This document shows, one piece after another, positions 9,236-23,000 of a stretch of DNA of 26,482 bases (its first letter is position 1; every line of letters starts with the position of its first letter). Below the pieces are notes generated by a model. It saw only the letters and a program-made list of their open reading frames with translations. It ran no database searches and was not told the DNA's origin. Position numbers and translations under genes: made by a program. The DNA comes from a virus: positions 1-26,482 of IMG/VR virus record IMGVR_UViG_3300029258_003539. The stretch is one strand, 5' to 3'.

Positions 9236-10858
9236 TTATACAGGCATCGGCCAGTTCGAGCTACTTGAGGAGCTCTCACTCGAGGAGCTACTCACGCTAC
9301 TACTTGAGCTACTCTCAGAGCTGCTGCTTGAGCTACTCTCTGAAGAACTGCTTGAACTTCTAGATGAAGAGCTCTTACTTGAACTACTCTGACTACTACT
9401 TGATTGTGAAGAACTACTCGAACTACTTTCAGAACTCGAAGAACTACTCTCAGAGCTAGAAGAACTTTCTGAACTCGAAGAACTGCTCTCCGAGGAACTG
9501 CTTGAGCTTCTAGATGAAGAGCTACTCTCACTTGAGGAGGAACTACTCTCAGAAGAGCTACTTGTAGAACTACTAGATTCCGAGGAACTGCTACTTACAC
9601 TCGAGGAGCTACTCACGCTACTACTTGAGCTACTTACACTTGAAGAACTACTGGATTCTGAACTACTCGAACTACTTTCTGAACTCGAAGAACTGCTCTC
9701 CGAGGAACTGCTCTCTGAGGAACTGCTACTCTCAGAGGAAGAACTACTCTCAGAGGAACTCGAAGATTCAGAAGAACTACTCGCAGAACTACTAGATTCC
9801 GAACTACTACTTGAACTCTCAGAGGAACTACTTGCTGAACTTGAAGATTTTGAAGAACTAGATGAGCTCTCACTTGAGCTGCTACTCTCTGAGGAACTGC
9901 TCGATTCTGAACTACTAGAACTACTCTCAGAACTTGAGGAACTACTCTCACTTGAGCTGCTACTCTCAGAACTACTACTTGAACTCTCAGAAGAACTACT
10001 ACTTGATTCTGAACTCGAACTACTCTCACTCGAGCTACTGCTCTCAGAACTACTAGATGAGCTTTCACTTGAACTACTACTTGACTTCGAAGAACTGCTA
10101 CTCTCTGAGGAACTGCTACTCTCTGAACTACTCGAGGAACTACTAGATTGAGAACTACTACTAGAGCTCTGGCTTGAAGAACTACTCTTAGAACTACTAG
10201 ACGAACTACTTTCACTCGAACTACTCGTAGAACTCGATGATTCTGAACTTGAAGAACTGCTTTCACTCGAACTACTCTCGCTAGAAGAGGAGCTACTCTT
10301 GCTCGAAGAAGAGCTCTTACTTGAGGATGAACTGCTCTCTGAACTGCTTGAACTACTCTCTGAAGAACTACTACTCTCACTTGAACTACTCGAACTCTCG
10401 GAACTACTGCTTGAACTCTCTGAAGAACTAGAACTACTTGAGCTACTTGAGCTACTTTCACTTGAAGAACTACTTGAATATTTAGAACTAGAAGAAGAAC
10501 TCTGTGAACTTGAAACACTACTAGAACTACTTGGATTAACTACCGTTACATTATTAGAACAGACATTACACCAGGCCCACCCATTCCACATATAGCAGGC
10601 CGAATCATGAACAGCATCGAAATCCACCAGAAGGGGTGAATTCAGAACATGATTGGTAATCGTCAAGCGTGCTCCATTCGTCGCATCGCTCATCCATATA
10701 CATTTCGTCTGCCCCCCAAAATCTCCATCCGGCAGAGTACAGTTAGGGGTATCTGAACCGGAATCGATCTCAGACTCACCGTAATTATTAAGGATCGTTC
10801 CGTTATACCTAACCAACTCATAATGCCAACAGGAAGGAGGCGTTATTTCAATCGACAT
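9236..10858 (-). CDS. Mucin-like Ser-rich repeat virion protein
   Basis: This 540-residue protein has two parts. Residues 1-109 form a possible folded domain with six Cys (10, 40, 53, 88, 97, 100) and Trp/Tyr-rich ends. Residues 110-534 are almost entirely Ser runs of three to eight, each broken by a single residue, most often Glu, also Lys, Gln, Val, Thr, Ala or Arg. It ends NWPMPV. AGGAGG sits 5 bases before the ATG. It lies between the tail terminator region and the tail tube gene, so it is probably a virion component, such as a tail or capsid fibre. Ser-rich tracts of this kind are classical O-glycosylation acceptors in bacterial Ser-rich adhesins, and a glycosyltransferase island lies in the same operon. 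Its exact role is unknown. Confidence 0.85.
   Translation of the reverse strand: MSIEITPPSCWHYELVRYNGTILNNYGESEIDSGSDTPNCTLPDGDFGGQTKCIWMSDATNGARLTITNHVLNSPLLVDFDAVHDSACYMWNGWAWCNVCSNNVTVVNPSSSSSVSSSQSSSSSSKYSSSSSSESSSSSSSSSSSSESSSSSSESSSSSSESSSSSESSSSSSESSSSSSKSSSSSKSSSSSSESSSSESSSSSSESSSSTSSSSESSSSSSSKSSSSSQSSSSSSQSSSSSSSSESSSSSESSSSSKSSSSSSESSSSSSESSSSSESSSSSESSSSSSESSSSSSESSSSSESSSSSSESSSSSSESSSSSESSSSSESSSSSSKSSSSASSSSESSSSSSESSSSASSSSESSSSSESSSSSESSSSSESSSSESSSSSSESSSSSSESSSSSSVSSSSSSVSSSSSVSSSSSESSSSTSSSSESSSSSSESSSSSRSSSSSSESSSSSSESSSSSESSSSSSESSSSSSSQSSSSQSSSSKSSSSRSSSSSSESSSSSSSESSSSSSVSSSSSESSSSSSNWPMPV
9257..10531 (-). repeat. Long Ser-rich low-complexity coding repeat
   Basis: About 425 codons encode degenerate units such as SSSSSE. 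AGT/AGC and TCN serine codons alternate irregularly, so the DNA is not a simple tandem repeat even though the protein is. This composition keeps other frames open, producing long spurious Leu/Glu-rich and Val/Arg-rich frames. Confidence 0.95.
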
Positions 10859-10867
10859 ATTAACCTC

Positions 10868-11203
10868 CTATCCCATATTATAAGCTATCTGATAACTACA
10901 TGTTCCACCACCCGCAACCGCTATAAGAACGGCTATTCCATGATTAACAAGAATGCCTGGATCAACACTGATCACATGCTTCCTATCGGCCCCGACCACT
11001 ATATAATTCGTGGGCCAGATCCTCCTTGCACTTGCCACCGCTGTGTCATTATCATAGACATTGACGGTTATATTATTATGATTGTCTGTAACGAAGACTA
11101 TGCCGTTCCAGATGCACCTCCTCGCCACTGCGAAGGAGGCCGTCAGTACGGCCGTCATCTCATAATAGTTTAATTGCTGATTCTTCAGTCTCGTAGTACC
11201 CAT
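10868..11203 (-). CDS. Hypothetical structural-module protein
   Basis: This 111-residue, beta-rich protein has no motif I recognise. It contains a stretch of alternating hydrophobic residues (IVFVTDNHNNITVNVYDND) followed by an Arg/Trp/Pro segment and a Gly-rich end (VAGGGTCSYQIAYNMG). GGGAGG sits 5 bases before the ATG, and the Ser-rich gene follows after 9 bases with its own ribosome binding site. The pattern (small single beta domain, strong translation signal, next to a fibre-like protein) would fit a decoration protein or the base of a fibre, but this is inference from context. It starts after a 65-base gap carrying a short direct repeat. Confidence 0.6.
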   Translation of the reverse strand: MGTTRLKNQQLNYYEMTAVLTASFAVARRCIWNGIVFVTDNHNNITVNVYDNDTAVASARRIWPTNYIVVGADRKHVISVDPGILVNHGIAVLIAVAGGGTCSYQIAYNMG

Positions 11204-11228
11204 AAAAACCTCCCTAATCGCTGTAACG

Positions 11229-11258
11229 CTCTATCCACTGCTACACTCTATCCACTGC
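11229..11258. repeat. Short direct repeat, 13 bp with period 17
   Basis: CTCTATCCACTGC occurs at 11229-11241 and again at 11246-11258, in the gap between the tail terminator gene and the hypothetical gene. Two helical-phase-spaced copies could bind a protein, but the element may be incidental. Confidence 0.5.
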
Positions 11259-11268
11259 CCGAATATCA

Positions 11269-11718
11269 TCACCACTCACCCTGCAGCTTTTTCAGGATAT
11301 AACTGGCCCTGAACCTCATTACCTTTCTGAATGAATCTATTCTGCCGGTGGTCTCATGTATCTCGACTATATTGTCGTCGTACTCCTTCACTACTCTCAG
11401 GACCCTGTAGCTTGAAGTCGTAAAAGTACGATCCTTTAAGATTACTGTTATCCGCTCGGCCATATTGTCCCTATTGTCGGCGCTACTGCCGAAGCAGTTT
11501 ATGTCTATAGTCTGATCCTCATACTGGGTCGTCTGAATGTACTCGCTATCTATGATAGCCCCCGCTGAACTTACATTAAATGTGATAAATGGAGGAGTCA
11601 GATCCTCCGGTGGAAACTCATCATACAGTCGTGGATCAGAAGCGCTCCACCCCGTATAGGTCCTCAAAGTGACATCAGCCACCAGTGTATCATATATATA
11701 ATTCGCTATCTCTTTCAT
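11269..11718 (-). CDS. Tail terminator / tail completion protein
   Basis: This 149-residue alpha/beta protein has the size, order and layout of the family of proteins that cap the tail tube (gpU/DUF3168-like): an N-terminal helix (MKEIANYIYDTLVADVTLRT), then a strand with PPFITFNVSS, a turn, a middle strand (YEDQTIDINCFG), a helix (DNMAERITVILKD) and final strands (YRVLRVVKEYDDNIVEI). Its start overlaps the stop of the upstream gp10-like gene as ATGA. It lies at the end of the neck gene block, as expected for a protein joining tail to head. The family call rests on order plus the helix-strand layout. Confidence 0.7.
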   Translation of the reverse strand: MKEIANYIYDTLVADVTLRTYTGWSASDPRLYDEFPPEDLTPPFITFNVSSAGAIIDSEYIQTTQYEDQTIDINCFGSSADNRDNMAERITVILKDRTFTTSSYRVLRVVKEYDDNIVEIHETTGRIDSFRKVMRFRASYILKKLQGEW

Positions 11719-12335
11719 TTGAACCTCGTTCCGGTATGGCTTTTAAAAGTCCTCTTAAGTGACCTTATCATCAATTTTACTACGTTGTTCTGGTTCTCTC
11801 CCAAAGTCACCATGAACCAGGGCCTGGGCAATAACTGCCGCTTGCCTATATTCTTATTGCCGTAGGGCCAGATTTTGGCCCCCACCTCTAAGAAATATCC
11901 ATAGGCCACATTCGTTCCTATATAGCCCTTTATCTTATGGAAGATCCCTCCAGGCCTCGGAAGTGGCCTTCCATCGGACGGAGCCCCCTGCCTGTAAGTA
12001 GTATTATGGGTGATAGAGGCCCTTAGCCTTCCAAGGTCAGGAGCAGGTGGTTGGCCAGGGACAGAGGCCACGTGAAAAGAGTACCTACTTCTCTTCTCCT
12101 TTGTATCCCCTTTAAACAAACCTCTCTTCCCCTTCATGGAGGATATATAGGTCTTACCGCTTCCCGGCTGACTTAGCTTCCTCTTCAGCTTCCTCTCTAA
12201 GAAGTTCCCGGCCTCCCAGATGGCTTCCTCGGAGGCCTTCTTCACATCGGCATCCGCAGCCTTTAGGGCGGCTATTACCTTGTCGATCCCCTCAACCCTA
12301 AAGCCTTCTCCCTTTATCTTCTTTATTGTTGGCAT
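11715..12335 (-). CDS. HK97 gp10-like neck/tail-completion protein
   Basis: This 206-residue basic protein has the familiar layout of the HK97 gp10-like family: an N-terminal segment with VEGIDKVIAALKAADADVKK, a helix with EEAIWEAGNFLERKLKRKL, a Gly/Ser/Lys-rich loop, then HNTTYRQGAPSDGRPLPR and a strand with YIGTNVAYGYFLEVGAK. That last motif (GTN-x-YA-x-x-x-E-x-G) is typical of the family. The end contains LLPRPWFMVTL, also conserved. It is longer than the usual 120-150 residues because of extra loops. Its start overlaps the previous stop as TAATG and its own stop overlaps the next start, so the neck genes form one coupled unit. Confidence 0.82.
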   Translation of the reverse strand: MPTIKKIKGEGFRVEGIDKVIAALKAADADVKKASEEAIWEAGNFLERKLKRKLSQPGSGKTYISSMKGKRGLFKGDTKEKRSRYSFHVASVPGQPPAPDLGRLRASITHNTTYRQGAPSDGRPLPRPGGIFHKIKGYIGTNVAYGYFLEVGAKIWPYGNKNIGKRQLLPRPWFMVTLGENQNNVVKLMIRSLKRTFKSHTGTRFK

Positions 12336-12685
12336 TATTCAACCACCGAGAGCCTGACCTCCATATGATGCCCCCTACCGACGACATCCAATGGATTAGA
12401 AAGTATTATAAATGATCTTCCATCCTCATCGACTATCTTATCGTCCTTTTGGATATTAGCCCCTAACATAAAAAAGCCCATCCACCCGCCCTCGGTCTCG
12501 AAACCATGTCCAGTGACTTCCCTAGTTCCAGCTGCTACTCCGCCACCAAATACATACTGGATATTACAATGGATATTTTTGGCCGTGGCTGTAGTAGGAT
12601 AGGTCACGGTTGATCGGCCCTTGGTATAGGATACCGTTGGCCGGTAGACACTTATTGTATTAACTAAAAGAGATTCGTAACTCAT
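12335..12685 (-). CDS. Head closure / head-tail joining protein
   Basis: This 116-residue beta-barrel-like protein begins MSYESLLVNTISVYRPTVSYTKG and ends with the pattern of head-tail joining proteins (gp16/SPP1-like or HK97 head-tail adaptor): a strand region with DDKIVDEDGRSFIILSNPLDV, then HHMEVRLSVVE. It would close the portal-adaptor channel after DNA packaging. The start codon overlaps the connector stop by 4 bases, and it is followed by the gp10-like gene through a TAATG overlap. Size and position agree with the family. Confidence 0.75.
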   Translation of the reverse strand: MSYESLLVNTISVYRPTVSYTKGRSTVTYPTTATAKNIHCNIQYVFGGGVAAGTREVTGHGFETEGGWMGFFMLGANIQKDDKIVDEDGRSFIILSNPLDVVGRGHHMEVRLSVVE

Positions 12686-13305
12686 GCCCAGCCCACCACC
12701 TTCCGTCTATACCTATCTATAACGTTTTTCTGCCATTCCTCCTTTAGATCACCTCGGCTGTAGCTATAGTTTCCGATCCTCTCACTTTTAAATCCCAGAT
12801 TCTTCCGATGACTGTAGACCCATCCGACCAGGCTATTGCAGAGCAGTTTCAGATCATCCAACTCCTTAGTCCCAGAGGCATACCCGGCATTAAAAGTCAC
12901 CCTAACATTTTTAATTCCGACATCGAAGCCGTAGTCATAGAAAAGCATCCCACGGCTCTTATAAATCACATAGCCAGTGGAGCCATAGTAGTCTGTGTCA
13001 GTGGCAGCAGTGACTGTATCTCCACTTATAACCAGGGTAGTCACGCTGTTTATCGGGTACTGCCTGAGGTGAAGCTTCTTCTTCCCGGTCCCATCATACC
13101 TGGCGTTCTCATAATCTGTATCAGGATCATAGTCCTGGGCCACCAGATTCCTGTCGGTCTCCTTTTCTATGAAACTACTACTCTGGTTGATCAGCTTCCT
13201 GAATAGCTCATGATCACTATCGTCAACATCGCTCAGTCCCAGGAACTCCTTCACGTCATCTATATCGGACAGGGCATTATCATTAAGAGTTGTTGGTACA
13301 CCCAT
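12682..13305 (-). CDS. Head-tail connector (gp6-like adaptor)
   Basis: This 207-residue protein has an N-terminal helical part characteristic of gp6-like/adaptor proteins (DIDDVKEFLGLSDVDDSDHELF, then a helix with NQSSSFIEKETDRNL), a beta middle (KLHLRQYPINSVTTLVISGD) and a helical C-terminus with KLLCNSLVGWVYSHRKNLG. Such proteins sit under the portal and connect the head to the neck. GGAGGAG lies 4 bases before the ATG, inside the end of the upstream GT9-like gene, which it overlaps by 23 bases. The sugar island is therefore joined tightly to the neck block. Confidence 0.8.
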   Translation of the reverse strand: MGVPTTLNDNALSDIDDVKEFLGLSDVDDSDHELFRKLINQSSSFIEKETDRNLVAQDYDPDTDYENARYDGTGKKKLHLRQYPINSVTTLVISGDTVTAATDTDYYGSTGYVIYKSRGMLFYDYGFDVGIKNVRVTFNAGYASGTKELDDLKLLCNSLVGWVYSHRKNLGFKSERIGNYSYSRGDLKEEWQKNVIDRYRRKVVGWA

Positions 13306-14425
13306 AGGTCTCCTCCATCAATTCTTTCTTCCATGGTCTCCAGTGGACAAACTTCATCCTTTTTACTGCAAGCTGCTCGGATAGTGAACCTGAAAAATCA
13401 GATTTGATCAGCTCGGGAAGGTACTCCCGGACCTCGGTAAACACCATCTCAGGCTTCAGGGCCTCCATACACTTCCACTCCTCACAGACGTGGAACCTCG
13501 GGCTGGCCTGGCAGGGAGCACACGGCATCGGACTCCTTATGATCCTATGATCCTTATTGTAAGGACCATTCTTACTGACCAGAGTAGGCCCGAATAGTAC
13601 TATCATCGGGATATCATGAGCATCAGCCACATGCATCAGGCCGGTGTCCGTAGTGATGAATAGGTGGCACTGCCTAAGCATATGGATGGTTTCCATCATA
13701 TTCATATTATTCACGCAGTCCACCACATTGTAGGCCCTCTCCGACATCTCCCTGCCCCATTTCTTCTCCCGGTCTCCTTTTCCGAACAGGAAGATCCTAA
13801 ACTTGCTATGTCCGAAGAATCGGTTCAAAAGATCGATCAGCTCGCCGAAATAGGGCCAGCCCTTCCTCTCCCACTTCCAAGTAGAGCCCTCAAATAGGCC
13901 ATTACACAGTCCTACTTTCAGGCTCAGCATATCTTTGTTGGTGGGATTCTCATAGATATTCAGACTTCTCTGACCCTTCGGACAGTACAGGGAGGGGACA
14001 TCCTTAATGTATCCCAGCCTGTAGACCTCGTTCATGTAGGAGTCTACCTCGTTCAGCTTCTCTGCTCTCCAATTTACTGGCTCAGCGTCATATCCTGCAT
14101 ACTTCTCGAAGTAGTAGTAGGCATCCGATGTCTCGCCATGCCTCGAGTAGAACAACTGCTCATACTTATCCTTATTGAAGGTATTATCGAATTCGACTAT
14201 TTCGTTTACCAGGGGCCATTTGTTGCACAGCTCCCTCACGGAATCGGTCCGGCTGTCTGACCAATTAGGATCCAGGACTATGTCGACTTTGGCATTGTGC
14301 ATTTCGCACAGGGCCTTTATCGCCGGAGTCAGCATGATGAAATTCCCGATCCCATTCCTAAAGTAAACAGCCACTAAGTTCTCAGGAGTACTTCCAGGGA
14401 TCTTCCTTGTCCTTCTCTTAGGCAT
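13283..14425 (-). CDS. GT9-family (heptosyltransferase-like) glycosyltransferase
   Basis: This 380-residue protein matches the ADP-heptose:LPS heptosyltransferase family (GT9, GT-B fold). The N-terminal domain has VYFRNGIGNFIMLTPAIKAL, the family's glycine-rich start, then AKVDIVLDPNWSD. The C-terminal domain has the donor-binding signature FITTDTGLMHVADAHDIPM followed by IVLFGPT (about 250-280). A Cys-rich segment (CAPCQASPRFHVCEEWKC) follows. GT9 enzymes add heptose or related sugars to an acceptor from a nucleotide-sugar donor. In a phage head operon the acceptor is unknown: virion protein or host surface polysaccharide. Its start overlaps the preceding GT4-like gene by 8 bases. Confidence 0.88.
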   Translation of the reverse strand: MPKRRTRKIPGSTPENLVAVYFRNGIGNFIMLTPAIKALCEMHNAKVDIVLDPNWSDSRTDSVRELCNKWPLVNEIVEFDNTFNKDKYEQLFYSRHGETSDAYYYFEKYAGYDAEPVNWRAEKLNEVDSYMNEVYRLGYIKDVPSLYCPKGQRSLNIYENPTNKDMLSLKVGLCNGLFEGSTWKWERKGWPYFGELIDLLNRFFGHSKFRIFLFGKGDREKKWGREMSERAYNVVDCVNNMNMMETIHMLRQCHLFITTDTGLMHVADAHDIPMIVLFGPTLVSKNGPYNKDHRIIRSPMPCAPCQASPRFHVCEEWKCMEALKPEMVFTEVREYLPELIKSDFSGSLSEQLAVKRMKFVHWRPWKKELMEETYGCTNNS

Positions 14426-15521
14426 CCGGAGCCCCGTACCTGCGGCCTCGGGCTATCATGGACCTTCGTCTATTGATATCCTCTGTAGATTGAAAGACGT
14501 TGTTATCCCTCTTCCTGGATAGCAGTCCCTTAAACAGATCTACCATCATCTTCATATTGATTTTCCGATCCCCCAGGCTTCTTATCTTCTTTCTTCCCTT
14601 CATCGATATAGTCTCCAGCTTCTTACGTCCCTCTTTTGATCCAACAAGGCTCAGGATCTTCTCCACAGAATCCGACACGGACTCTATAATAAAACCCGTC
14701 TCTCCATCCTTCAGGTAGTCGACCATCCCGCTCAGTTCCTCGTCTGCCCCGAATAATACGCATCCGCAGAGCATAGCCTCCTCGGGAGGCATATGGAGCC
14801 CCTCACTCTTAGTTGGAGCCAGCCATAGATCAACCTTGTTGTAGAAGACCTTAAGCTCATCTGGTGTTGGCTGCATCAAGTAGCTACTGCATTCCAGATC
14901 CTCCGGCTTCTCCTCCGTCCCGAATAGATGAAGCCTGACGTTCAGGCCCTGATCTTTCAATCCCTTGACTATCTCCGGAACCCACTCAAACCGCTTCCTT
15001 GGTTTACCATTATACAGAGCCCCGATGGACCACTGCTTCTTAACCGCCCAGTTCCTAGTCCTCGTCGGCTTAAAGAGATCAGTATCTGTCCCCGGCCTAA
15101 TGATCGGGCAGAACTTATTCATCCTTGACTTAATAAACTTCTGTAGACACAGGCCATTAACTATCAGATTTATATTCGAGTTCCTGTAATTGGCAAATAG
15201 CTGATTCTCGTCAGCGTTCCAAGTCTCATGTGCCCGTATCCACCAGTACTTCTCGCCCTTCTCTACCGGGGCTCTTACTACATTCCTGACTGACTTGACA
15301 CCGGTGGCTATTAGTATATCAGCGTCCGGGTATTCCAAAGTAGATCCAGTCTCGAACCACTTGGGTCCATTAAGCTTAAACCAAGTAAACTCATTAGGCA
15401 TGTTGGATACTACAAAGACCTGGTGGCCCAATGAACTCAGGGTATTGGCCGAATGGAACAGTGTGGCCGTACCCCCATTATTCCCGGCGCCTACGCTCTG
15501 AAGATTGAATGTAATTTTCAT
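14418..15521 (-). CDS. GT4-like glycosyltransferase
   Basis: This 367-residue GT-B fold glycosyltransferase starts MKITFNLQSVGAGNNGGTAT, a typical N-terminal acceptor loop (GG-x-A), continues with a Rossmann-like strand (HQVFVVSN), and carries the GT4 donor motif at about 239-250 as APTKSEGLHMPPEEAMLCGC, where the two Glu residues lie about seven apart. A C-terminal basic extension of about 40 residues (RRRSMIARGRRYG) is unusual and may bind a partner or membrane. A GAGGAG site lies 6 bases before the ATG. The enzyme transfers a sugar from a nucleotide donor; donor and acceptor cannot be told from the sequence. It is followed closely by the GT9-like gene. Confidence 0.82.
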   Translation of the reverse strand: MKITFNLQSVGAGNNGGTATLFHSANTLSSLGHQVFVVSNMPNEFTWFKLNGPKWFETGSTLEYPDADILIATGVKSVRNVVRAPVEKGEKYWWIRAHETWNADENQLFANYRNSNINLIVNGLCLQKFIKSRMNKFCPIIRPGTDTDLFKPTRTRNWAVKKQWSIGALYNGKPRKRFEWVPEIVKGLKDQGLNVRLHLFGTEEKPEDLECSSYLMQPTPDELKVFYNKVDLWLAPTKSEGLHMPPEEAMLCGCVLFGADEELSGMVDYLKDGETGFIIESVSDSVEKILSLVGSKEGRKKLETISMKGRKKIRSLGDRKINMKMMVDLFKGLLSRKRDNNVFQSTEDINRRRSMIARGRRYGAPDA

Positions 15522-15531
15522 CTTATTCTCC

Positions 15532-16203
15532 TCATAAAATTTTATTTGAATTTTTCAGCCCATCATAATCATAACTCAACTTCAACAGGCTGATCGGGCA
15601 TCCTCTCCACCGGTACATGAAAGCCCTGGAGGAGTTCACCCTTCCCCATCTCTTTCCGATCTTACTCCTTGTTATCTCACTTGTATAAAGAGGATCCAAA
15701 TTGCAGAATTCGAAGATCCTTCTAAGCGTATAGAAAGTCCTTGTGACCAATGACTCATAGGAGACGATCAGGGTATCCTTTATCTTGCTTAGATCCTTTA
15801 TTATTGTCGGGATAACGAAGTCCTGAATCCTCATGATCTCCTCTTCATTGTAATTATAGCCCCTCTTCCTTCCAAACTTGCCATTACTGATGGCCACATC
15901 GATCGGGTGCCTGACTAGGTATATGATCCTGGTCCTATCCTTCCATAGTTTTCTCCACTCCTTGATATAGTGAAGTATACCATTAGCTGAGTTTGAGAAG
16001 AAAGGGACCTTATCTCCCCATGTGGTATTATATGGGTCCACGATCTTATTCTTCCTTAGATAGGATTCTCTCTGCCGCTCGTCAAAGCCCTTGTTTAGAA
16101 TCTTCTCTTCATGAAAGATCTTTATTATATCAGGATGCTTCTCCATCAGCTCCCTAGTTAACGTGGTCCCACTACGCTGAAAACCGGCGATCAATATAAT
16201 CAT
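15532..16203 (-). CDS. Sulfotransferase-family protein
   Basis: This protein has 223 residues from the ATG at 16203, which has GAGGAG about 8 bases upstream; the frame also has a TTG one codon earlier. It has the PAPS-binding signatures of the sulfotransferase superfamily: the 5'-phosphosulfate loop GFQRSGTT near the N-terminus, WGDKVPF with the conserved Lys about 80 residues in, and the 3'-phosphate motif YLVRHPIDVAISNGKF (about 124-140). It is basic and short compared with many carbohydrate sulfotransferases, so some acceptor-binding elements may be missing. It overlaps the end of the upstream glycosyltransferase by 32 bases. The target is unknown; sulfated glycans on the virion are one possibility. 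Confidence 0.82.
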   Translation of the reverse strand: MIILIAGFQRSGTTLTRELMEKHPDIIKIFHEEKILNKGFDERQRESYLRKNKIVDPYNTTWGDKVPFFSNSANGILHYIKEWRKLWKDRTRIIYLVRHPIDVAISNGKFGRKRGYNYNEEEIMRIQDFVIPTIIKDLSKIKDTLIVSYESLVTRTFYTLRRIFEFCNLDPLYTSEITRSKIGKRWGRVNSSRAFMYRWRGCPISLLKLSYDYDGLKNSNKIL

Positions 16204-17230
16204 CAATTCTGCTCCTCAGGTAGTCGGCTGCATGCTTAGTAGTCAGATTGTTTTCATAGTACTTCCTTGGGCTATACTGATCCCGACTAACGAGGACCTC
16301 CTCTACGGTCTCCCAGAAATTCACTTTACTAGCTATCTTTCCTGTCTCCGGCGTAATATACTTCTTATATAGAAACTCAAGTTCATTCAGTACCACTATC
16401 GGAATATCAGAGGCCAGTAACTCAGGAATTACTCTTGGATTCGAATCCCAGGACATACCGTAGAATCCAGTCTTTCCCTCAGATGCTACAATACCTACCT
16501 CGCACTTCTGCATATTCCTACTGACTTCCTTTCTTAATACTCTCTTACTCTTTACATTAGCTGGCACTTCTATATTCTCGTCCATTACCGGGCCACCTAA
16601 GTTCAATACCCTAAGATAAGAAGGAACAGTAGAATATATAAATGAATGACCCTTCCGATTTGAGCTTCTTCCATCGGCCGGATAGCAGACATTGTACTCC
16701 TTCACTACATCATCCATCTTATAGAATAGGTTATCGGCGGCCGGCTTAAAGAATATCTGAACCTCAGCGTTCGGAAATTCCCTCTGTGTAATTTCCTTTT
16801 GTCTCATGGAGTCAACTAGGATCATATCATAATCCATGAAGGACTTGAAGATAGGCAGAAATCTCTTTCCGGCCCCATAGTAGATCTTGATAGCCTTCTT
16901 GTACCTCTGTAGTACCGGATGATAGTCCCTAAATCCTCCCCTGCAGAATATTATGTCGGGCTCTATGCCACTCTCGAAGTTGTCAAACCAAGTCGTAAAG
17001 TATTCTTTTAAGTTGGGCGTGTACTTCTTCTCTCGGTCTTCCTGCCAGTAGTACTCTTCACCCTTTTTCGGATCACCCCTCCAGTACCAGATCTCCCCCT
17101 TATCTTCTCTCTTTAATAGTCCATTAAAGAGATGGGTCCACATATCATCACATTCCTCAAGAGAATCAAATATGATCTCACTTGGATCCCTGTCCTGAGG
17201 AACCTGGCCCCTCAGCATCAGAAAGTTCAT
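16172..17230 (-). CDS. Probable GT-B glycosyltransferase (CgeB/GT1-like)
   Basis: This 352-residue protein has a GT-B-like layout. The N-terminal half holds a Trp/Tyr-rich part (WYWRGDPKKGEEYYWQ) and a Rossmann-like strand (PDIIFCRGGFRD). The middle has YDMILVDSMRQKEI, then EVQIFFKPAADNLF. The C-terminal half has YNVCYPADGRSSNRKGH, then VGIVASEGKTGFYGMSWDSNPRVIPELLASDIPIVV, the donor-domain pattern of family 1/CgeB-like enzymes (given here only as key blocks). The start overlaps the WbqC-like stop as ATGA and its end overlaps the sulfotransferase start. I regard the GT call as likely but the family as unproven. Confidence 0.68.
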   Translation of the reverse strand: MNFLMLRGQVPQDRDPSEIIFDSLEECDDMWTHLFNGLLKREDKGEIWYWRGDPKKGEEYYWQEDREKKYTPNLKEYFTTWFDNFESGIEPDIIFCRGGFRDYHPVLQRYKKAIKIYYGAGKRFLPIFKSFMDYDMILVDSMRQKEITQREFPNAEVQIFFKPAADNLFYKMDDVVKEYNVCYPADGRSSNRKGHSFIYSTVPSYLRVLNLGGPVMDENIEVPANVKSKRVLRKEVSRNMQKCEVGIVASEGKTGFYGMSWDSNPRVIPELLASDIPIVVLNELEFLYKKYITPETGKIASKVNFWETVEEVLVSRDQYSPRKYYENNLTTKHAADYLRSRIDDYIDRRFSA

Positions 17231-17913
17231 TTCTCTCCTCTGATAATCCCCAAACTACTTCCACCATGATTAAACAATAGATCCAGTATAGACATATGAG
17301 GCTGGAACTCCCCATACTGCTGCTTGTACTCTGGATGGTTAAAGCTCTCAAAGATTACCTTTATACCGGCATCCTTATAGGCATCAAGGTCCATATAGTT
17401 CTTCCCTCCAGGACCAGATAGATAGGCGTCCCCGCCGACAGCCTTGATTAATTCTATGATTCTTTTATCCGGCTGCCTCGTCTTCACCTCCAGGTCGCTA
17501 GCCTGGTACTCGTCAGTGACGATCCCCAGTAATTCCTTGATCCTATTGATGACCTCTATATTTAGAATGGACAGCCTATCCCACTTCTCGCTGAAGGCCC
17601 ACCTGATTGCAGACATAATATCATTGTAGTACTCGGACTTACTGTAATACTTCTCTATAGACTTACGGTGCTTACTCTGCCACTTGATTCCATCGTCTAT
17701 CTCTATATCCTTTATAAGCGACTTATAGCTATTGTAGACTACGGGGACAGTCAGCCAGTGCCATCCATTCTCGCTCTTGATCCTGTTCCTATTCTGGAAC
17801 TCACTCTTCCTGAACTGCACCGTATCCAAATGGATGAAGGCGTCTGCCCTATCCATCTTGTAGAAGTATCCCAGCCAGGGCATGTACTGTGGCTGATGTA
17901 TTGCTACTATCAT
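17227..17913 (-). CDS. WbqC-like protein
   Basis: This 228-residue protein begins MIVAIHQPQYMPWLGYFYKM, the hallmark of the WbqC family found in O-antigen and other surface-sugar gene clusters. It continues with FIHLDTVQFRKSEFQNRNRI and, later, a glycine-rich segment AYLSGPGGKNYMD (about 170-183), both typical of the family. Length is normal for the family. The biochemical role of WbqC proteins is not well defined; an aminosugar acyl-transfer function has been suggested. Start and stop codons overlap the neighbouring genes as ATGA, so it is co-translated with them. Its presence supports surface-sugar biosynthesis as the purpose of the island. Confidence 0.88.
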   Translation of the reverse strand: MIVAIHQPQYMPWLGYFYKMDRADAFIHLDTVQFRKSEFQNRNRIKSENGWHWLTVPVVYNSYKSLIKDIEIDDGIKWQSKHRKSIEKYYSKSEYYNDIMSAIRWAFSEKWDRLSILNIEVINRIKELLGIVTDEYQASDLEVKTRQPDKRIIELIKAVGGDAYLSGPGGKNYMDLDAYKDAGIKVIFESFNHPEYKQQYGEFQPHMSILDLLFNHGGSSLGIIRGEK

Positions 17914-18617
17914 TTCTTCGGCTCCTCTAGTTTTCCCCTCACTCCGTATTCGACTATGTCAGCCACAACCTTCCCCATCTTCCACTTCTTCCATTTTATA
18001 TTCCTATTGATCGCATCCCACTGGGTCGTAAAGAAATGACGGACTGCTACATTAATGTCTCTCATATTGGGAACGGCTTTCTCATTATCCGTTATCCCAG
18101 GATTATGAGGATCATATAGAAATCCAGTATGCGGAGGCAATGCAGGCACATGCTGCCTCACCCGATCATTATATTGATAGGCGCACTCATGACATCGACA
18201 GACATATTCGAGCATAGCCTTTAGGTAGCTCTCGCTTATATAGGTCGACTTCATGTTTCTGTAAGCCCCAATAGATTGATTCTTATGCTTGACATCGTAG
18301 AACTCCAAGACATCGAAATCCTTTATATAATTCTCTATCTCCTTAAATGGATCTCTCTCTGGATGCATAAACTTCATATCATCATGCATAAAGAAGACTC
18401 CACTCTCTCCATTCCAGGCATTCTTCAGGTAGAAATCATACTTATACATATCTAATCCTATGTTAGCAGCCGGAATAAAAGTGACATTCTTATATGATTC
18501 AGCGGGATTCTCTCTATCGCCACTGGCAATCGAATGAATATTATGGTCAGGAGCATATCTATCTAAGACCTGATAGACATCTTCCCAGAAGTAATGACCT
18601 ACAGCGCATACGTTCAT
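17910..18617 (-). CDS. Probable glycosyltransferase (GT-A-like, HDD motif)
   Basis: This protein has 235 residues if translation starts at MNVCAVGHYFW. The frame extends 5 codons further upstream to a GTG, but the GGAG motif lies about 9 bases before the ATG at 18617. It has alternating hydrophobic strands and helices, an internal GVFFMHDDMKFM block whose DD may coordinate a metal and nucleotide sugar, as in GT-A folds, and a helix-rich end. A block SIASGDRENPAESYKN precedes it. I do not recognise the family with certainty. Its neighbours (WbqC-like, GT-like genes) and the ATGA overlap with the next gene point to the same pathway. Confidence 0.6.
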   Translation of the reverse strand: MNVCAVGHYFWEDVYQVLDRYAPDHNIHSIASGDRENPAESYKNVTFIPAANIGLDMYKYDFYLKNAWNGESGVFFMHDDMKFMHPERDPFKEIENYIKDFDVLEFYDVKHKNQSIGAYRNMKSTYISESYLKAMLEYVCRCHECAYQYNDRVRQHVPALPPHTGFLYDPHNPGITDNEKAVPNMRDINVAVRHFFTTQWDAINRNIKWKKWKMGKVVADIVEYGVRGKLEEPKK

Positions 18618-18644
18618 CTCAAATTTCTCCACTTCTTACTGTTT

Positions 18645-19196
18645 TTATAGTGCAAGGCCTTGGCAGTCAATCCACCAATCAGTTCCAGTATGTTGTCTCC
18701 TCTTTCTAAAATCCCTTAAGACCTTCCAATTCAGCTTCTCCTTGACTTGCTTCTTTATATAGTTCAAGAAGTTATATGTCCTATCATTATACACAAAGCC
18801 CCAGAAGCAGGCGATGACCGGCATCTTATCGAAATGATCCCTTGTGCTGAGAAGGACATCCCCATCGAATAGGTCAAACACCCTGAATGGATCTTCTTTT
18901 ACGACCATATCGGCGTCCATCGAGAGTACCCTGTCACCCTCTTTATAATCAAATTTTAAATAACTCTCTACCCTTATCTGGGCTCTCTTCCCGTCCCAAT
19001 CCCTATCGTTGTAGGTGATCTTCTTTTTTGGCCCAGAGAGACTATCGTAGAAAGGGATATTTCCAAGTTCAACTAGATGAAGCTCAAATTTAGAATACTT
19101 ATATAGGCTCTCTATAAGATCCTGGAAAGGCTTCTGGTAGTTTGAGCTAACCATCACATGAATGATATTACGGCTTAAACCATTTTCCATCTTCAT
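18645..19196 (-). CDS. Probable GT-A glycosyltransferase (GT8-like)
   Basis: This 183-residue protein resembles the N-terminal part of a GT-A transferase: a strand and helix with IIHVMVSSNYQKPFQDLIES, a second strand with FELHLVELG, and the metal-binding DxD block VLSMDADMVVKEDPF at about residues 90-105, followed by a Phe-rich segment with VIACFWGFVYND. It is short for GT8, so the C-terminal domain may be reduced. The start is uncertain: ATG at 19196 has only a weak motif, and a second ATG at 19190 is also possible. It overlaps the upstream sulfotransferase-like gene by 29 bases. Confidence 0.65.
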   Translation of the reverse strand: MKMENGLSRNIIHVMVSSNYQKPFQDLIESLYKYSKFELHLVELGNIPFYDSLSGPKKKITYNDRDWDGKRAQIRVESYLKFDYKEGDRVLSMDADMVVKEDPFRVFDLFDGDVLLSTRDHFDKMPVIACFWGFVYNDRTYNFLNYIKKQVKEKLNWKVLRDFRKRRQHTGTDWWIDCQGLAL

Positions 19197-19713
19197 CTCG
19201 TATGAACTGCCTGATACTTGGAATATTAAGATTGAGTCCTGACCACTCCGATAAACTCGTAAGAGCCCTCTCAGGCTTTACCATCAGTAGTGACGTAGAT
19301 ACGACTATAAAATCATTTCCAGCTACGTCATAAAAGATCTTCCTGTATTCTGCCTTTGCCGCCTCCCTCGGATCGTCCATGGAGCAGTGATTTCTGGACA
19401 CCATACTCCTGGTATGACTGTAGAGTTCCCTGACAGTAATTATATACCTGACGTTAAATCCCAGGTCCTTAAGGCCATCCCTCGACAGTGATAGTGGCTC
19501 CCACCTACTCTCGTCCCTCTCATGTGGCATACTCCTCCAGATAACAATGTCTCCATTTTTCGGGAGCCTATCCTTTATGGTCTCTACCAAGATAGAATTA
19601 TAGATCCTTCTGAGACCAAACAGTGGATCAGCTACTCCTGCGGACCTGAAAATCTTGGTCATCAGCCTCGTACCGCTCGACTCTGGTCCTATAACGAAAT
19701 AGGCAGTCCTCAT
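19168..19713 (-). CDS. Sulfotransferase-like P-loop protein
   Basis: This 181-residue protein starts MRTAYFVIGPESSGTRLMTK, where PESSGTR fits the 5'-phosphosulfate-binding loop of sulfotransferases. Further on, RYIITVRELYSHTRSMVSRN (about 90-109) fits the 3'-phosphate motif with Arg and Ser. It then has a strand with DFIVVSTSLLMVKPE. It is shorter than the second sulfotransferase-like gene and lacks the obvious WGDK block. The start overlaps the upstream glycosyltransferase as ATGA. The function is predicted from two motifs only; another P-loop transferase or kinase is possible. Confidence 0.68.
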   Translation of the reverse strand: MRTAYFVIGPESSGTRLMTKIFRSAGVADPLFGLRRIYNSILVETIKDRLPKNGDIVIWRSMPHERDESRWEPLSLSRDGLKDLGFNVRYIITVRELYSHTRSMVSRNHCSMDDPREAAKAEYRKIFYDVAGNDFIVVSTSLLMVKPERALTSLSEWSGLNLNIPSIRQFIRDEDGKWFKP

Positions 19714-20819
19714 ACTAACCTATCCAATCCATGATAATAATACCATATGGCCTTCCAGAATGAGTAAGGCCCCTGCTCTATAAAGTACCGGAACTTATCC
19801 CTTGACCACTCCTCGTCCTCTATGTGAAACACCTTGAAACTCTTTATTCCCATATTCTCGTTCATGATGGGCTTACACCCGCACAGGAGCCCCTCGGCTA
19901 TCGTCCTACCACAGGCCTCATAGGCCCTTGGCAAATGCATTGTATAAGTGGCCCTGTTGTATATCTCCGGAAGCTGTTCGTTCTCCACTAAGGGAAAGAC
20001 CTTCACGTTGTCCAGCTGCTTCATCGCGTCAGCTATGTTCTGGTGCTCCCTTGTGTAGATCTCGAACTTCAATTTCTTCTTCCCCATGATGAACTGGAGC
20101 ACATTGTAATAGCCCTTCTGGGCGTATAATCGCCCGCAGGTGTTGACAACCAGCTTGGGGTCTCTCTCTATACCCTCCAGAATCCTGAACTTCCTTGTAT
20201 CAATCGCTGGAGGTAATAGATAATAAGGATCGATCCCATCCCCCAGCTTTTCCCTATGATTCCTCTCCTGAAAGGGACTGATGAACACATTTAAAAAGGA
20301 ATGCTTAAACAACAGTCTAGCCAATTTGATCCTGCTATCGGCTCCTATAATCTCCCTGTGATCATGCTCATATTTGACATAGGGCTTTTTGTACTCGAAG
20401 ATCAGATCCAGTATAAAGTGGAACTGATCAGGCTTAAAGAAGAAGAAGTTGTTGATCACCAGGAAGTCGCAGGCTATCAGGGCTTTCTTGTCGAAGTTAC
20501 TCGGCGTGAAGGTCTGGAACAGATAGCCGAACTCCCTTCCGGCCCTCTTCACCACCTCATTGCTCAATTCGGCCCCACCGTAAACCTCCGTGTCCTGTAC
20601 CCATCCTACTAAAGGTCTCTTCCCCACCAGCTTCCGGCTTTCGGGTCTCTCCCTCTTTTCCTTCTCCCTTAGATTCTTATCAACCAGAGGATTATCGAAG
20701 CTGGTCACCGGGATGGCCTTCCCCTGTCTCATCAGGTTGGCTCCGGCCGTATCCGACACCTCATAGAGGTCCAGGCCGAACCGCTGGATCATGGCCCTAT
20801 CTGTATATCGAATCTTCAT
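19710..20819 (-). CDS. GT4-like glycosyltransferase with unusual N-terminal extension
   Basis: This 369-residue GT-B-type protein opens the sugar island. Residues 1-40 (MKIRYTDRAMIQRFG...GKAIPV) look unlike a GT start and resemble small phage head-module domains; the transferase begins at about residue 70 with GWVQDTEVYGGAELSNEV (GGAE loop). The donor-binding domain has VVNTCGRLYAQKGYYNVLQF and then a pattern with HLPRAYEACGRTIAEGLLCG (about 300-320), where the two Glu residues are about seven apart, as in GT4 enzymes. The next gene starts in its stop as ATGA. Donor and acceptor are unknown. Confidence 0.82.
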   Translation of the reverse strand: MKIRYTDRAMIQRFGLDLYEVSDTAGANLMRQGKAIPVTSFDNPLVDKNLREKEKRERPESRKLVGKRPLVGWVQDTEVYGGAELSNEVVKRAGREFGYLFQTFTPSNFDKKALIACDFLVINNFFFFKPDQFHFILDLIFEYKKPYVKYEHDHREIIGADSRIKLARLLFKHSFLNVFISPFQERNHREKLGDGIDPYYLLPPAIDTRKFRILEGIERDPKLVVNTCGRLYAQKGYYNVLQFIMGKKKLKFEIYTREHQNIADAMKQLDNVKVFPLVENEQLPEIYNRATYTMHLPRAYEACGRTIAEGLLCGCKPIMNENMGIKSFKVFHIEDEEWSRDKFRYFIEQGPYSFWKAIWYYYHGLDRLV

Positions 20820-20945
20820 AAAACACCTAAAATAAGCCTACTTTCCTAAAACTATATAATATCCCATTACTTTCCTTAAAACATCGATGTACGACCCCTT
20901 TACGGAGTTCTAAGGCGGTTTCTAGAGAATCCTCTGCCCCTGTTT
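20820..20945 (-). other. Gap between the Gly-rich mini-gene and the sugar island
   Basis: The part closest to the glycosyltransferase is AT-rich (for example ATATTATATAG) and could contain a weak promoter, but no convincing -35/-10 pair was found. One minus-strand frame is open from 20997 to 20827 without any ATG, GTG or TTG; see the rejected list. Confidence 0.4.
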
Positions 20946-21077
20946 TCAGCAGGTGCCTCTTCTTCCACCCGTTTTCGGCCCACGGCCCTTGCCGGAATTA
21001 TTCCCTTTCCCCCCTCCGTGTCCGTCTCTCGGTCCTCCCGATCCCTTCGGTGGTCCGCTTCCGTCTCCCTTAGGCAT
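20946..21077 (-). CDS. Gly-rich mini-protein (DUF5320-like pattern)
   Basis: This 43-residue protein starts at MPKGDGSGPPKG. An in-frame ATG two codons upstream is less likely because AAGGGG then lies only 2 bases away, against 8 for this start. It is almost wholly Gly, Lys, Arg, Pro and Ser and ends GGRRGTC, so it is basic and disordered. The opening GDGSGPPKGSG and the closing RGPKTGGRRGTC recall the DUF5320 pattern (GDGTGP...GPMTGRGAGYC). It lies between the capsid accessory genes and the sugar island, with a strong terminator-like hairpin upstream. Function is unknown; it might bind nucleic acid or a virion protein. Confidence 0.6.
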   Translation of the reverse strand: MPKGDGSGPPKGSGGPRDGHGGGKGNNSGKGRGPKTGGRRGTC

Positions 21078-21091
21078 AATCATTTCCCCTT

Positions 21092-21125
21092 AAAAATTTT
21101 ATTGGAGGCTGCCGAAGCAGCCCCC
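21092..21125 (-). terminator. Terminator-like hairpin after the second decoration gene
   Basis: On the minus strand GGGGGCTGC and GCAGCCTCC (21117-21125 and 21104-21112) pair over 9 bp, with one G-T wobble, around a stable TTCG loop. A short A/T tract with five T (21092-21096) follows about 8 bases later. It could reduce transcription from the strongly expressed capsid block into the sugar island. Confidence 0.65.
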
Positions 21126-21133
21126 TGTTAGTA

Positions 21134-21592
21134 TTAACCGGTAGCCGGATTCTTATTGTAAGTAACCGTGCTCTCGTTGGCTGTCTGGTAGATCGGCTCA
21201 CGCCTTGACCTATCAAAGTTGCCGTGGCAAGTAAAGGCCAGACTGGCCCCCGCTACCGTCATCACTAAGTGTATGTATCTCTGGAGGTCCCTGATCTCGG
21301 CGATCCACAGAGTATTGGTATCCCAAGCCATCTGACTACAGGTGGCAAAGGAAGTCAGAGCTCCTGAAACATCCCCGGTATGGATCACTATATCCAGGGT
21401 AGCACCCGTTGTAATGGTACCACTCATATTTACAACCAGGAGCATGTTGGTGGGGATCTCCCTACCACTCCAGACCGCTCCGGCCGGTCCGGCCCTGAGG
21501 TCAAACTCGGTGCTGGTATAGGCAGCAGCAGTCCTCGTGACCGGATGCTCAAAAACTACTATTCGCTCATTGGCGCATCTATCTCTTCTCAT
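21134..21592 (-). CDS. Probable capsid decoration protein, copy B
   Basis: This 152-residue beta-rich protein is closely related to copy A: roughly 60% identity by eye, with identical ends (MRRDRCANERI at the start, SRREPIYQTANE and TVTYNKNPATG at the end). The middle has GREIPTNMLLV, GATLDIVIHTGDVSG and IAEIRDLQRYI in conserved order. Two copies right after the capsid gene suggest small, abundant capsid proteins that cover or stabilise the shell. The ATG at 21592 has AAGGAGG about 10 bases upstream, better placed than the GTG three codons before it. The family is not named; a Bbp16-like stabilising protein is one guess. Confidence 0.6.
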   Translation of the reverse strand: MRRDRCANERIVVFEHPVTRTAAAYTSTEFDLRAGPAGAVWSGREIPTNMLLVVNMSGTITTGATLDIVIHTGDVSGALTSFATCSQMAWDTNTLWIAEIRDLQRYIHLVMTVAGASLAFTCHGNFDRSRREPIYQTANESTVTYNKNPATG

Positions 21593-21692
21593 AACTATCA
21601 CCCCTCCTTAGGGTCTTCTTTCCGTTTGCAGTTTGATCAGTGCGGGCCGGAACGAAAGGTCAAGAAAACAACCCACACTGATGCACGATTGC
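21593..21692 (-). promoter_or_regulatory. Structured leader of decoration gene, copy B
   Basis: This is a 100-nt leader, homologous to 22162-22261 with no gap. On the minus strand an 11-bp stem pairs ATCAGTGTGGG with CCCGCACTGAT (21672-21682 and 21636-21646), including one U-G pair, around a 25-nt loop. A second small hairpin, ACCCT/AGGGGT (21600-21614), holds the AAGGAGG site. The loop contains CCTT, which could pair with the AAGG of the ribosome binding site. A translational control element is inferred. Confidence 0.7.
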
Positions 21693-21699
21693 GTTAATA

Positions 21700-22161
21700 T
21701 CATCCAGTGGCCGGGTTCTTGTTATAAGTAACCGTAGCCTCATTAGCAGTCTGGTAGATCGGCTCCCTTCGGCTCCGCTCCAGATTACCAGTCAGTCCAA
21801 AGTATAGCGTCTGAGTTCCCACCGTATAGGCAATACGCACATACCTCTGTAGATCCCTGACCTCAGCGATCCAAATGGTGTTCGTACTATGGGCCATTTG
21901 GCTTATGGTCGCGTAGGAGGTCAATGTCCCCGACACGTCACCAGTATGAATGATCAGGTCCAAAGTGGCCCCGGCAGTGACCGTGGTAGAAAAAATCGCC
22001 ACCAGGAGCATGTTGGTTGGAATCTCCCTTCCAGCCCATATGGCCCCAGCCGGTCCCTGACGCAGGTCCACCTCGGCGCAGGTCCAACCGCTTCCGGCCT
22101 GCACTGAAGTCGGTGGCTTAAACTGTATGATTCTCTCGTTAGCACATCTGTCTCTTCTCAT
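21700..22161 (-). CDS. Probable capsid decoration protein, copy A
   Basis: This 153-residue beta-rich paralogue of copy B has the same start and end sequences and the same conserved blocks (AEVDLRQGPAGAIWAGREIP, then LDLIIHTGDVSG and IAEVRDLQRYV). Its stop lies just upstream of the leader of copy B. The two copies arose by tandem duplication that included the leader, and they have diverged in the N-terminal loop and in the strand near residue 115. The ATG at 22161 has an AAGGAGG site; the GTG at 22170 lies within a hairpin and is less likely. Capsid role inferred from position and copy number. Confidence 0.6.
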   Translation of the reverse strand: MRRDRCANERIIQFKPPTSVQAGSGWTCAEVDLRQGPAGAIWAGREIPTNMLLVAIFSTTVTAGATLDLIIHTGDVSGTLTSYATISQMAHSTNTIWIAEVRDLQRYVRIAYTVGTQTLYFGLTGNLERSRREPIYQTANEATVTYNKNPATG

Positions 22162-22261
22162 AATTATCACCCCTCCTTAGGGTCTTCCTTCTGTTCTTGG
22201 TTTAATCGGCGCAGGACGAAACGAAGGGTCAAGAAAAACGCCTACGCCGATGCACAATTGC
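22162..22261 (-). promoter_or_regulatory. Structured leader of decoration gene, copy A
   Basis: The 11-bp stem pairs ATCGGCGTAGG with CCTGCGCCGAT (22241-22251 and 22205-22215). Compared with copy B, three base pairs differ and all three are compensated, while no pair is broken. By hand count 21 of 100 positions differ, six of them in the stem arms. The HNH gene upstream ends inside this stem (stop 22242-22244). Confidence 0.72.
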
Positions 22262-23000
22262 TGTTGAAAGTGAAAAACTCCAACCAGGACTCCCTATTAA
22301 AGTTCACCCTGGTATTACAGCCCCTGCATAGAGTCAAAAGATTGTTGGGGCTACAGTTCTTCTTATCGTAATCCATATGGTGGATACAGAGATCTTCCTT
22401 GGAGCTACAAAGCTGGCAGGTGTAATCGTCCCGCCTCTTGATGTCCTCTTTGAACTCCCTGTCGGCCCATGCGTCACAATAGGGCTCCACGGATATTCCG
22501 CCTTGCCAGTTGAAATGGTTCTGGCCGCTAAGCTTCAAAGAATGTTCAGGTCGAGGGACTCCCTTAATGCTATCATAATACCATTGAGTAGATTTCCTCT
22601 TCTTAGCTAATGCTTGAGGACTAGTCATTTGTTTAACCCAATTTTTCTTATACTCCTTAGTACTACTTCTTATTTTAGCAGCTTTGGACATCTTCATTCT
22701 TGTTTCTTCAGAAAAGATTTTCCCTCTATGAGCTTTTGAGATTTTTTTCTTATGTTCCTCTGTAAATTTCTTTCCACTCATTTTAGAGGCCTGCTTTTGT
22801 ATTCCAGGATGGTCCTTCTTAGTCAATCCCTTATTCCAACCTATACAACCTGTACTTCTTTCACTTGTTAGCTTTCTATAAATAGGACATCTCATATAAT
22901 GAGCTTCACAGCACCACTTCTTAGCAGTTGTAAAGTAATACTTGGCTACTCGCCCACACCCATAATCACAAAATCTCGGAACTTTCTTTCTCTTTCTCAT
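22242..23000 (-). CDS. HNH homing endonuclease with NUMOD3 motifs
   Basis: This 252-residue free-standing homing endonuclease has an N-terminal Cys/His-rich finger-like part (CDYGCGRVAKYYF, CCEAHYMRC), then NUMOD3-type DNA-binding repeats (GWNKGLTKKDH, KKFTEEHKKKISKAHRGK, IFSEETRMKMSKAAK; about 55-110), and a C-terminal HNH domain (about 190-235): CQLCSSKEDLCIHHMDYD, then NNLLTLCRGCN, with Cys-x2-Cys pairs and the His-His pair. It would nick or cut a specific DNA site in phage relatives lacking it. It lies between the capsid gene and the decoration gene, and its last codons lie in the leader of copy A. The N-terminal half is visibly AT-rich compared with its neighbours. Confidence 0.9.
   Translation of the reverse strand: MRKRKKVPRFCDYGCGRVAKYYFTTAKKWCCEAHYMRCPIYRKLTSERSTGCIGWNKGLTKKDHPGIQKQASKMSGKKFTEEHKKKISKAHRGKIFSEETRMKMSKAAKIRSSTKEYKKNWVKQMTSPQALAKKRKSTQWYYDSIKGVPRPEHSLKLSGQNHFNWQGGISVEPYCDAWADREFKEDIKRRDDYTCQLCSSKEDLCIHHMDYDKKNCSPNNLLTLCRGCNTRVNFNRESWLEFFTFNSNCASA

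Follow-up and report, generated by a model that had tools for sequence, protein, structure and literature searches.

Glycosylation of phage virions has been proven in a few mycobacteriophages, and virus-encoded glycosylation of the capsid is also a property of the chloroviruses. The subject here is an island of sugar and sulfate genes in IMG/VR record IMGVR_UViG_3300029258_003539, a viral metagenome sequence from an uncultivated tailed phage; the whole stretch analysed, 26,482 bases in length, is termed the window. The island consists of nine head-to-tail open reading frames (ORFs) on the minus strand (positions 13283–20819), situated between duplicated decoration-like genes and the gene for the head-tail adaptor. 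It is probably a late-acting module for glycosylation of the virion, whose tailoring functions, sulfation among them, are exchangeable. Related loci and contigs are given by labels such as L001 and G004.

In the cluster O mycobacteriophage Corndog, an O-methyltransferase and three glycosyltransferases (GTs), gp35–gp38, are encoded between portal and protease (PMC4351075). These enzymes are present in infected cells and not in virions, and they were later reported to modify the capsid and tail tube (PMC4351075, PMC11600133), with C-terminal glycans found on both (PMC12619734). The island resembles the Corndog locus in that GT genes lie within the virion structural operon, but the island follows the capsid gene. 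In addition, no GT9, sulfotransferase or WbqC protein has been described in Corndog, whose enzymes are unrelated to those of the island. The Corndog precedent is the strongest support for virion modification. Phage-encoded GTs have also been linked to capsid glycosylation in F1 mycobacteriophages of the Che8/Maravista type (PMC11256854), but there the GT genes are near the right genome end and not in the head operon.

Serine-rich repeat glycoprotein systems (Gtf1/GtfA, Gtf3) resemble the window in their GT4-type enzymes and in a candidate acceptor with poly-serine; however, the Gtf1 and Gtf3 matches represent generic GT4 similarity, and poly-serine proteins are absent from most relatives of the window. 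Nothing like the accessory Sec genes (SecA2/SecY2) that go with the GtfA/GtfB pair of such export systems is apparent among the nine island families, although no dedicated search for them was made. The serotype-conversion gtr cluster has a membrane flippase and membrane GTs. The nine island proteins contain no membrane segment and no stretch above 1.3 mean hydropathy, and thus there is no gtr-type flippase.

A conserved slot after the capsid gene

The first and last genes of the island, termed GT4a and GT9, frame a slot that recurs in distant phages. A search of IMG/VR with a GT4a profile, which made no use of gene context, found 61 viral loci; clustering at 85% identity gave 41 lineages, two bacterial ones included and the window not counted. 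The gene for the HK97-type major capsid protein (MCP; 23097–24383, minus strand, in the window; phrog_10, 1.2e-45) serves as the synteny anchor. It lies directly upstream of GT4a on the same strand in 34 of these lineages, and GT9 lies downstream in 23, a count to be read with the fact that several contigs stop short of where GT9 would lie. The frame genes are recognizable at identities down to ~28%. Relatives found through the capsid protein have the same gene order, among them L001, whose capsid protein is 58% identical to that of the window.

Divergence of the frame genes follows that of the capsid protein, with Mantel correlations of r 0.76 for MCP and GT4a (n = 30) and r 0.77 for MCP and GT9 (n = 20; p 2e-4). 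The pattern is as expected under joint inheritance. Such correlations are inflated by common ancestry, yet a cassette that moved freely would show none. GT4a and GT9 are thus old, conserved residents of the head module. The initial annotation correctly placed co-directional sugar and sulfate genes between the capsid/decoration genes and the head-tail connector, a position delimited by phrog_10, phrog_427 and phrog_442 matches. It spoke of eight genes, where there are nine, and of an island ‘inserted’ in the head gene order, which is misleading for genes that are part of that module. Synteny in related phages, which it proposed to check, is borne out by the recurrence of the capsid–GT4a–GT9 order in dozens of distant phages.

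GT4a is nearly phage specific: against the 61 viral loci stand two matches in 84,980 genomes, both of them chromosomal GTs of Psychroserpens with 27–28% identity and ordinary chromosomal surroundings that contain no phage genes. A prophage or host origin was rejected, as the MCP has no relative in the 84,980 genomes and GT4a matches only the two Psychroserpens proteins. Searches of 50,697 annotated phage records by tblastn gave no match to GT4a or GT9; GT4b, a second GT4-type gene of the island, has one weak partial match among annotated phage records. GT4a, GT9 and the island protein U240 therefore show no detectable homology to annotated phage GTs. Adaptor and tube proteins used as viral-sequence queries yielded no confirmed relatives, nor did a first alignment search with GT4a. 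The MCP–GT4a–GT9 slot is apparently undescribed in the searchable literature, a scope that leaves out subscription journals.

A small head-linked domain

GT4a (19710–20819, minus strand) is the 5′ frame gene. It encodes an N-terminal, head-module-associated domain (residues ~1–40) fused to a GT4/GT-B glycosyltransferase, as judged by fold and synteny. The AlphaFold model (pLDDT 88) predicts a compact domain for residues 1–40, with pLDDT mostly 83–95, followed by a disordered linker and the GT-B core. Foldseek matches the model to GT-B/GT4 structures at E ~1e-11, which identifies the GT-B fold even though the match to PF00534 (1e-4) is below the Pfam cut-off. Fold matches include Gtf3 and, at rank 37, T4 alpha-glucosyltransferase; the closest PDB folds are generic GT-B enzymes and give no indication of the acceptor.

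The N-terminal domain is missing from GT4a of L086, L076, L067, L068, L070, L080, L105 and others, where a separate small ORF is found between the capsid gene and GT4a. A profile built from 18 fused N-termini was compared with 8,372 small ORFs from all loci. It gave 27 matches (E 8e-14 to 0.02), essentially all of them located between the capsid gene and GT4a. Comparison of the fused and split profiles gives a probability of 94%, position having been one criterion in the choice of the split set. By eye, small ORFs in L004 and in the island-less G005 resemble the domain, yet they are not matched by the fused N-terminus profile.

In four loci, which represent two lineages, the small ORF overlaps GT4a in the −1 frame (L005:7975–9224, L003:7789–9032, L002:4723–5210 and L034:11667–12931). 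In these phages no ATG, GTG or TTG precedes the conserved core in the GT4a frame, and a lysine tract of AAA/AAG codons lies within the overlap. A frame-preserving 6-nt indel in the overlap distinguishes L002 from L005, and L034 has 56% DNA identity to L005 across the small ORF–GT4a stretch. Sequencing error is an unlikely source of the overlap, since the assemblies are separate. The window and L001 encode the fusion of domain and GT4a directly, and the four overlaps suggest that these phages may make the same fusion by programmed −1 frameshifting. This remains a lead, because an in-frame heptamer of the A_AAA_AAG form, the best known, is absent from the overlap. As a separate observation, two overlapping ORFs make up GT4a in G013 (L047:5575–6667), with the split midway through the GT domain; the gene may be broken or the assembly faulty.

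Genes of the island

All island genes are on the minus strand. Family, relatives or fold securely identify three GT4/GT-B transferases, GT9, the WbqC-family protein and one sulfotransferase, ST2. The two GT4-like proteins of the initial annotation are GT4a and GT4b (14418–15521), the latter matching PF13692 at 1e-10; homologues of GT4b are present in the slot of L001, G004, G007 and L059 (E 4e-110 to 8e-60), and its sole PDB sequence match is Gtf1 (8.8e-4). The 3′ frame gene (13283–14425) encodes a GT9 enzyme, as had been proposed, of the heptosyltransferase family (PF01075, 8.2e-18; 65 bits, where the cut-off is 22). Its closest NCBIfam models, below cut-off, are those of lipopolysaccharide (LPS) heptosyltransferases II and I, and 20 viral loci were found for it. 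The WbqC-family protein (17227–17913) matches PF08889 at 3.9e-74 and 249.6 bits, above cut-off.

The protein encoded at 16172–17230 was annotated as CgeB/GT1-like. The protein itself has no Pfam match, but its homologues in the same slot of the L001, G004 and G007 islands match PF13692/PF00534 (up to 4e-14), which places it with GT4/GT-B enzymes. ST2 (15532–16206, TTG start as listed) passes the Pfam cut-offs for PF13469 (5e-13, 50.1 bits) and PF00685 (1e-12, 48.2 bits) and has homologues in L001 and G004; in the PDB it weakly matches tyrosylprotein sulfotransferase over the first loop only. ST1 (19168–19713, 181 aa), the other protein called sulfotransferase-like, has no Pfam match (PF13469 and PF00685 included) and no PDB match. 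It carries a motif read from the sequence as a 3′-phosphoadenosine-5′-phosphosulfate (PAPS) loop, GPESSGTRLMTKIF, and has a homologue (E 4e-13) between GT9 and the adaptor in L108/L111. ST1 may therefore be a second sulfotransferase, an assignment weaker than that of ST2. We know of no phage precedent for sulfotransferases.

Two proteins had been thought to be GT-A-like. The 183-aa product of 18645–19196, with an SMDADMVV motif, remains a candidate GT-A-type transferase whose match to PF03407 (0.0034) is below cut-off. The proposal was not confirmed for U240 (17910–18632, 240 aa, GTG start, HDD motif), which has no family or PDB match and no match in the 50,697 phage records, and for which structure prediction gave no usable fold (pLDDT 31). 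A profile search with PF08759 (GT-D) found no matches, and its controls were equally silent.

The genes between GT4a and GT9 differ from phage to phage. In L001, from decoration gene to adaptor, the order is GT4a, a 136-aa gene of no assigned function, GT4b, a sulfotransferase, a GT2-like gene, a CgeB-like GT4 and GT9. The G004 slot of ~19 kb contains PAPS-reductase-family, GT2, radical-SAM-like and epimerase-like genes, two sulfotransferase-like genes, GT4b, a CgeB-like gene and GT9, and the G007 slot is ~16 kb. In the clustered lineages GT4a and GT9 are separated by distances that range from an overlap (L108) to ~9 kb; overall, the cargo between the two varies from nothing to ~16 kb. Pfam matches to sulfotransferases occur only in the window, L001, G004 and, weakly, G013; by sequence comparison, L108/L111 have ST1-like genes and G007 a sulfotransferase-like one. 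L023 has a further WbqC gene downstream of GT9 and also a PF22882 GT-D-like gene. G+C content at third codon positions (GC3) is 0.66 in GT4a and 0.64 in GT9, similar to that of capsid and tail genes, and is lower on average in the middle genes.

Organization of the window

The window carries a siphovirus-type module on the minus strand and no early genes. A protease-like gene, the capsid gene, an HNH gene and two tandem decoration-like head proteins (21134–22170; phrog_427, for which no function is annotated) precede the island; phrog_427 proteins are also present in L001, L003, L005, L006 and L034. The head-tail adaptor gene (12682–13305; phrog_442, 6.8e-25) follows, with genes for neck, tail terminator, a poly-serine protein, tube, chaperones, tape measure and a fibre-like protein. 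Spacings within the island are −4, −29, +12, −4, −4, −35, +10 and −8 nt, and GT9 overlaps the adaptor gene by 23 nt (−23). Most neighbours overlap, as noted in the initial annotation, and the genes are therefore probably co-translated.

The 314-nt gap between decoration gene and GT4a (20820–21133) contains a GC-rich hairpin, then AATAAAATTTTT, plus a short Gly/Arg-rich ORF; the hairpin is not among the terminator scan results. Searches of the window for tRNAs and Rfam families found nothing. The HNH endonuclease gene (22242–23000) is immediately 3′ of the capsid gene, and HNH genes are also found in the G004 island. The G004 capsid gene (L005:5386–7464) is apparently interrupted by a 237-aa LAGLIDADG-type, homing-endonuclease-like ORF, which suggests an intron or intein.

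Candidate acceptors

Two proteins of the window are candidate acceptors. The poly-serine protein (9236–10858, minus strand) has serine at 358 of its last 430 residues, and all six serine codons are in use, so that the tract is selected as protein. A large tail/fibre protein (2162–5629, minus strand; phrog_8510, 1.5e-15, residues 660–831) has two poly-serine linkers. The tracts of both proteins, which use all six codons, are broken by single E, K, Q or V residues. Serine-rich virion-module proteins are also found in L003/G004, in L004 (at the C-terminus of a decoration-like protein) and in G013. In the latter, a distant relative, a 796-aa protein with SESASESAS repeats (L047:10418–12808) is encoded between sugar/sulfotransferase-like and head-tail genes. 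No link between sulfotransferases and serine-rich proteins is claimed, as G007 has a sulfotransferase-like gene and no serine-rich protein.

Proposed function and alternatives

Translation of the island genes would take place late, along with that of the capsid, decoration and connector genes; we infer late expression from position only, since the promoter and terminator scan of the window gave no signal above chance. The N-terminal domain of GT4a, in other lineages a small head-module protein in its own right, might recruit the enzyme to head proteins. GT4a and GT9 would then assemble the conserved core of a glycan on a virion protein, with nucleotide sugars supplied by the host. GT4b, the second GT4-like enzyme, the GT-A candidate, WbqC and two PAPS-dependent sulfotransferases would extend and sulfate the glycan, and exchange of these middle genes could make particle surfaces vary from phage to phage. 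Possible acceptors are the capsid, the decoration protein and the tail tube, as well as the poly-serine proteins in phages that have them.

Modification of virion proteins, proposed in the initial annotation, stands as the best reading. It appears better supported than the sequence alone could show, by conservation of the slot beside the capsid gene, divergence in step with the capsid protein and the link between GT4a and a small head protein, together with the Corndog precedent. Several observations weigh against it. The N-terminal domain weakly resembles DUF7302 (Pfam) and phrog_2616, neither of which indicates a function. In G005, whose capsid protein is 48% identical, the slot is empty and a sugar operon follows the lysis genes, and thus linkage of sugar genes to the head is not universal. 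A general acceptor role of the poly-serine proteins was rejected: among slot contigs they occur only in the window, L003/G004, L004 and G013, and are therefore candidates for a subset only. Furthermore, a GT encoded in a late operon may still act on the envelope. The G005 operon beyond the lysis region (L009/L010) is large and includes NeuB-like, CMP-sugar-synthetase-like and several GT genes.

An alternative, which we consider unlikely, is that the enzymes act on the host envelope, through late remodelling of LPS, capsule or teichoic acid that excludes other phages or prevents progeny from re-adsorbing to debris. The relationship of GT9 to LPS heptosyltransferases points in this direction, as do the occurrence of WbqC in polysaccharide loci and a cargo turnover similar to that of O-antigen loci. 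However, the island has no membrane protein or flippase, its frame genes follow the capsid gene and not integration or early genes, and GT4a is tied to a small head-module protein.

Hypermodification of DNA, in which the transferases would add sugars to a hydroxymethylated base in the phage DNA, is also disfavoured and appears somewhat less probable than action on the host surface. Phage pathways in which several GTs act in sequence on 5-hydroxymethylcytosine have been reported (Pyle et al., 2024, cited in PMC12619734). In these pathways the acceptor is DNA and base-hydroxylating enzymes are needed, which are not consistently present in the slot phages. The fold match of GT4a to T4 alpha-glucosyltransferase favours such a role, and thymidylate-synthase-family genes are found in G007, G016 and G019, those of G019 and G016 having Asp where thymidylate synthase has Asn. 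Yet among the large contigs, nearly all of which have the slot, genes of this family occur in just 3 of 20 and a C5-methyltransferase in 4 of 24; Tet/JBP was found in 0 of 24, with the control silent too. In addition, the genes sit in the head module, and we know of no precedent for the sulfation of DNA sugars. The G019 (48325–49200, minus strand) and G016 (11175–11876, minus strand) genes possibly encode dCMP hydroxymethylases, and the latter adjoins a C5-methyltransferase gene.

That the gap 3′ of the capsid gene is simply a landing site, which tolerates insertions and gathers unrelated sugar genes with no shared virion role, is very improbable: cargo content and length vary widely, HNH endonucleases are nearby and cargo GC3 is slightly below that of the frame genes, but GT4a and GT9 frame the slot at identities down to ~28% and diverge with the capsid gene, as hitch-hiking cargo would not.

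Implications

The slot follows the same logic as mycobacteriophage virion glycosylation, but at a fixed genomic position, in ~35 lineages without annotated relatives, and with sulfotransferases added. Tentatively, a large clade of uncultivated tailed phages may bear, on head or fibres, a sulfated, lineage-specific glycan coat laid down by a GT tethered to a small head protein, in some phages via programmed −1 frameshifting, with poly-serine acceptors in a subset; as a whole this picture is doubtful. Such a coat would be a phage counterpart of the capsid glycosylation that chloroviruses encode. Phages of this kind can be recognized readily by the GT4a–GT9 pair after the capsid gene, and the sugar genes classed as ‘auxiliary’ in viral metagenomes become a testable structural hypothesis. 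If the virion-directed reading is true, modular glycans would control the surface and stability of the particle, its adhesion and the way in which defences recognize it.

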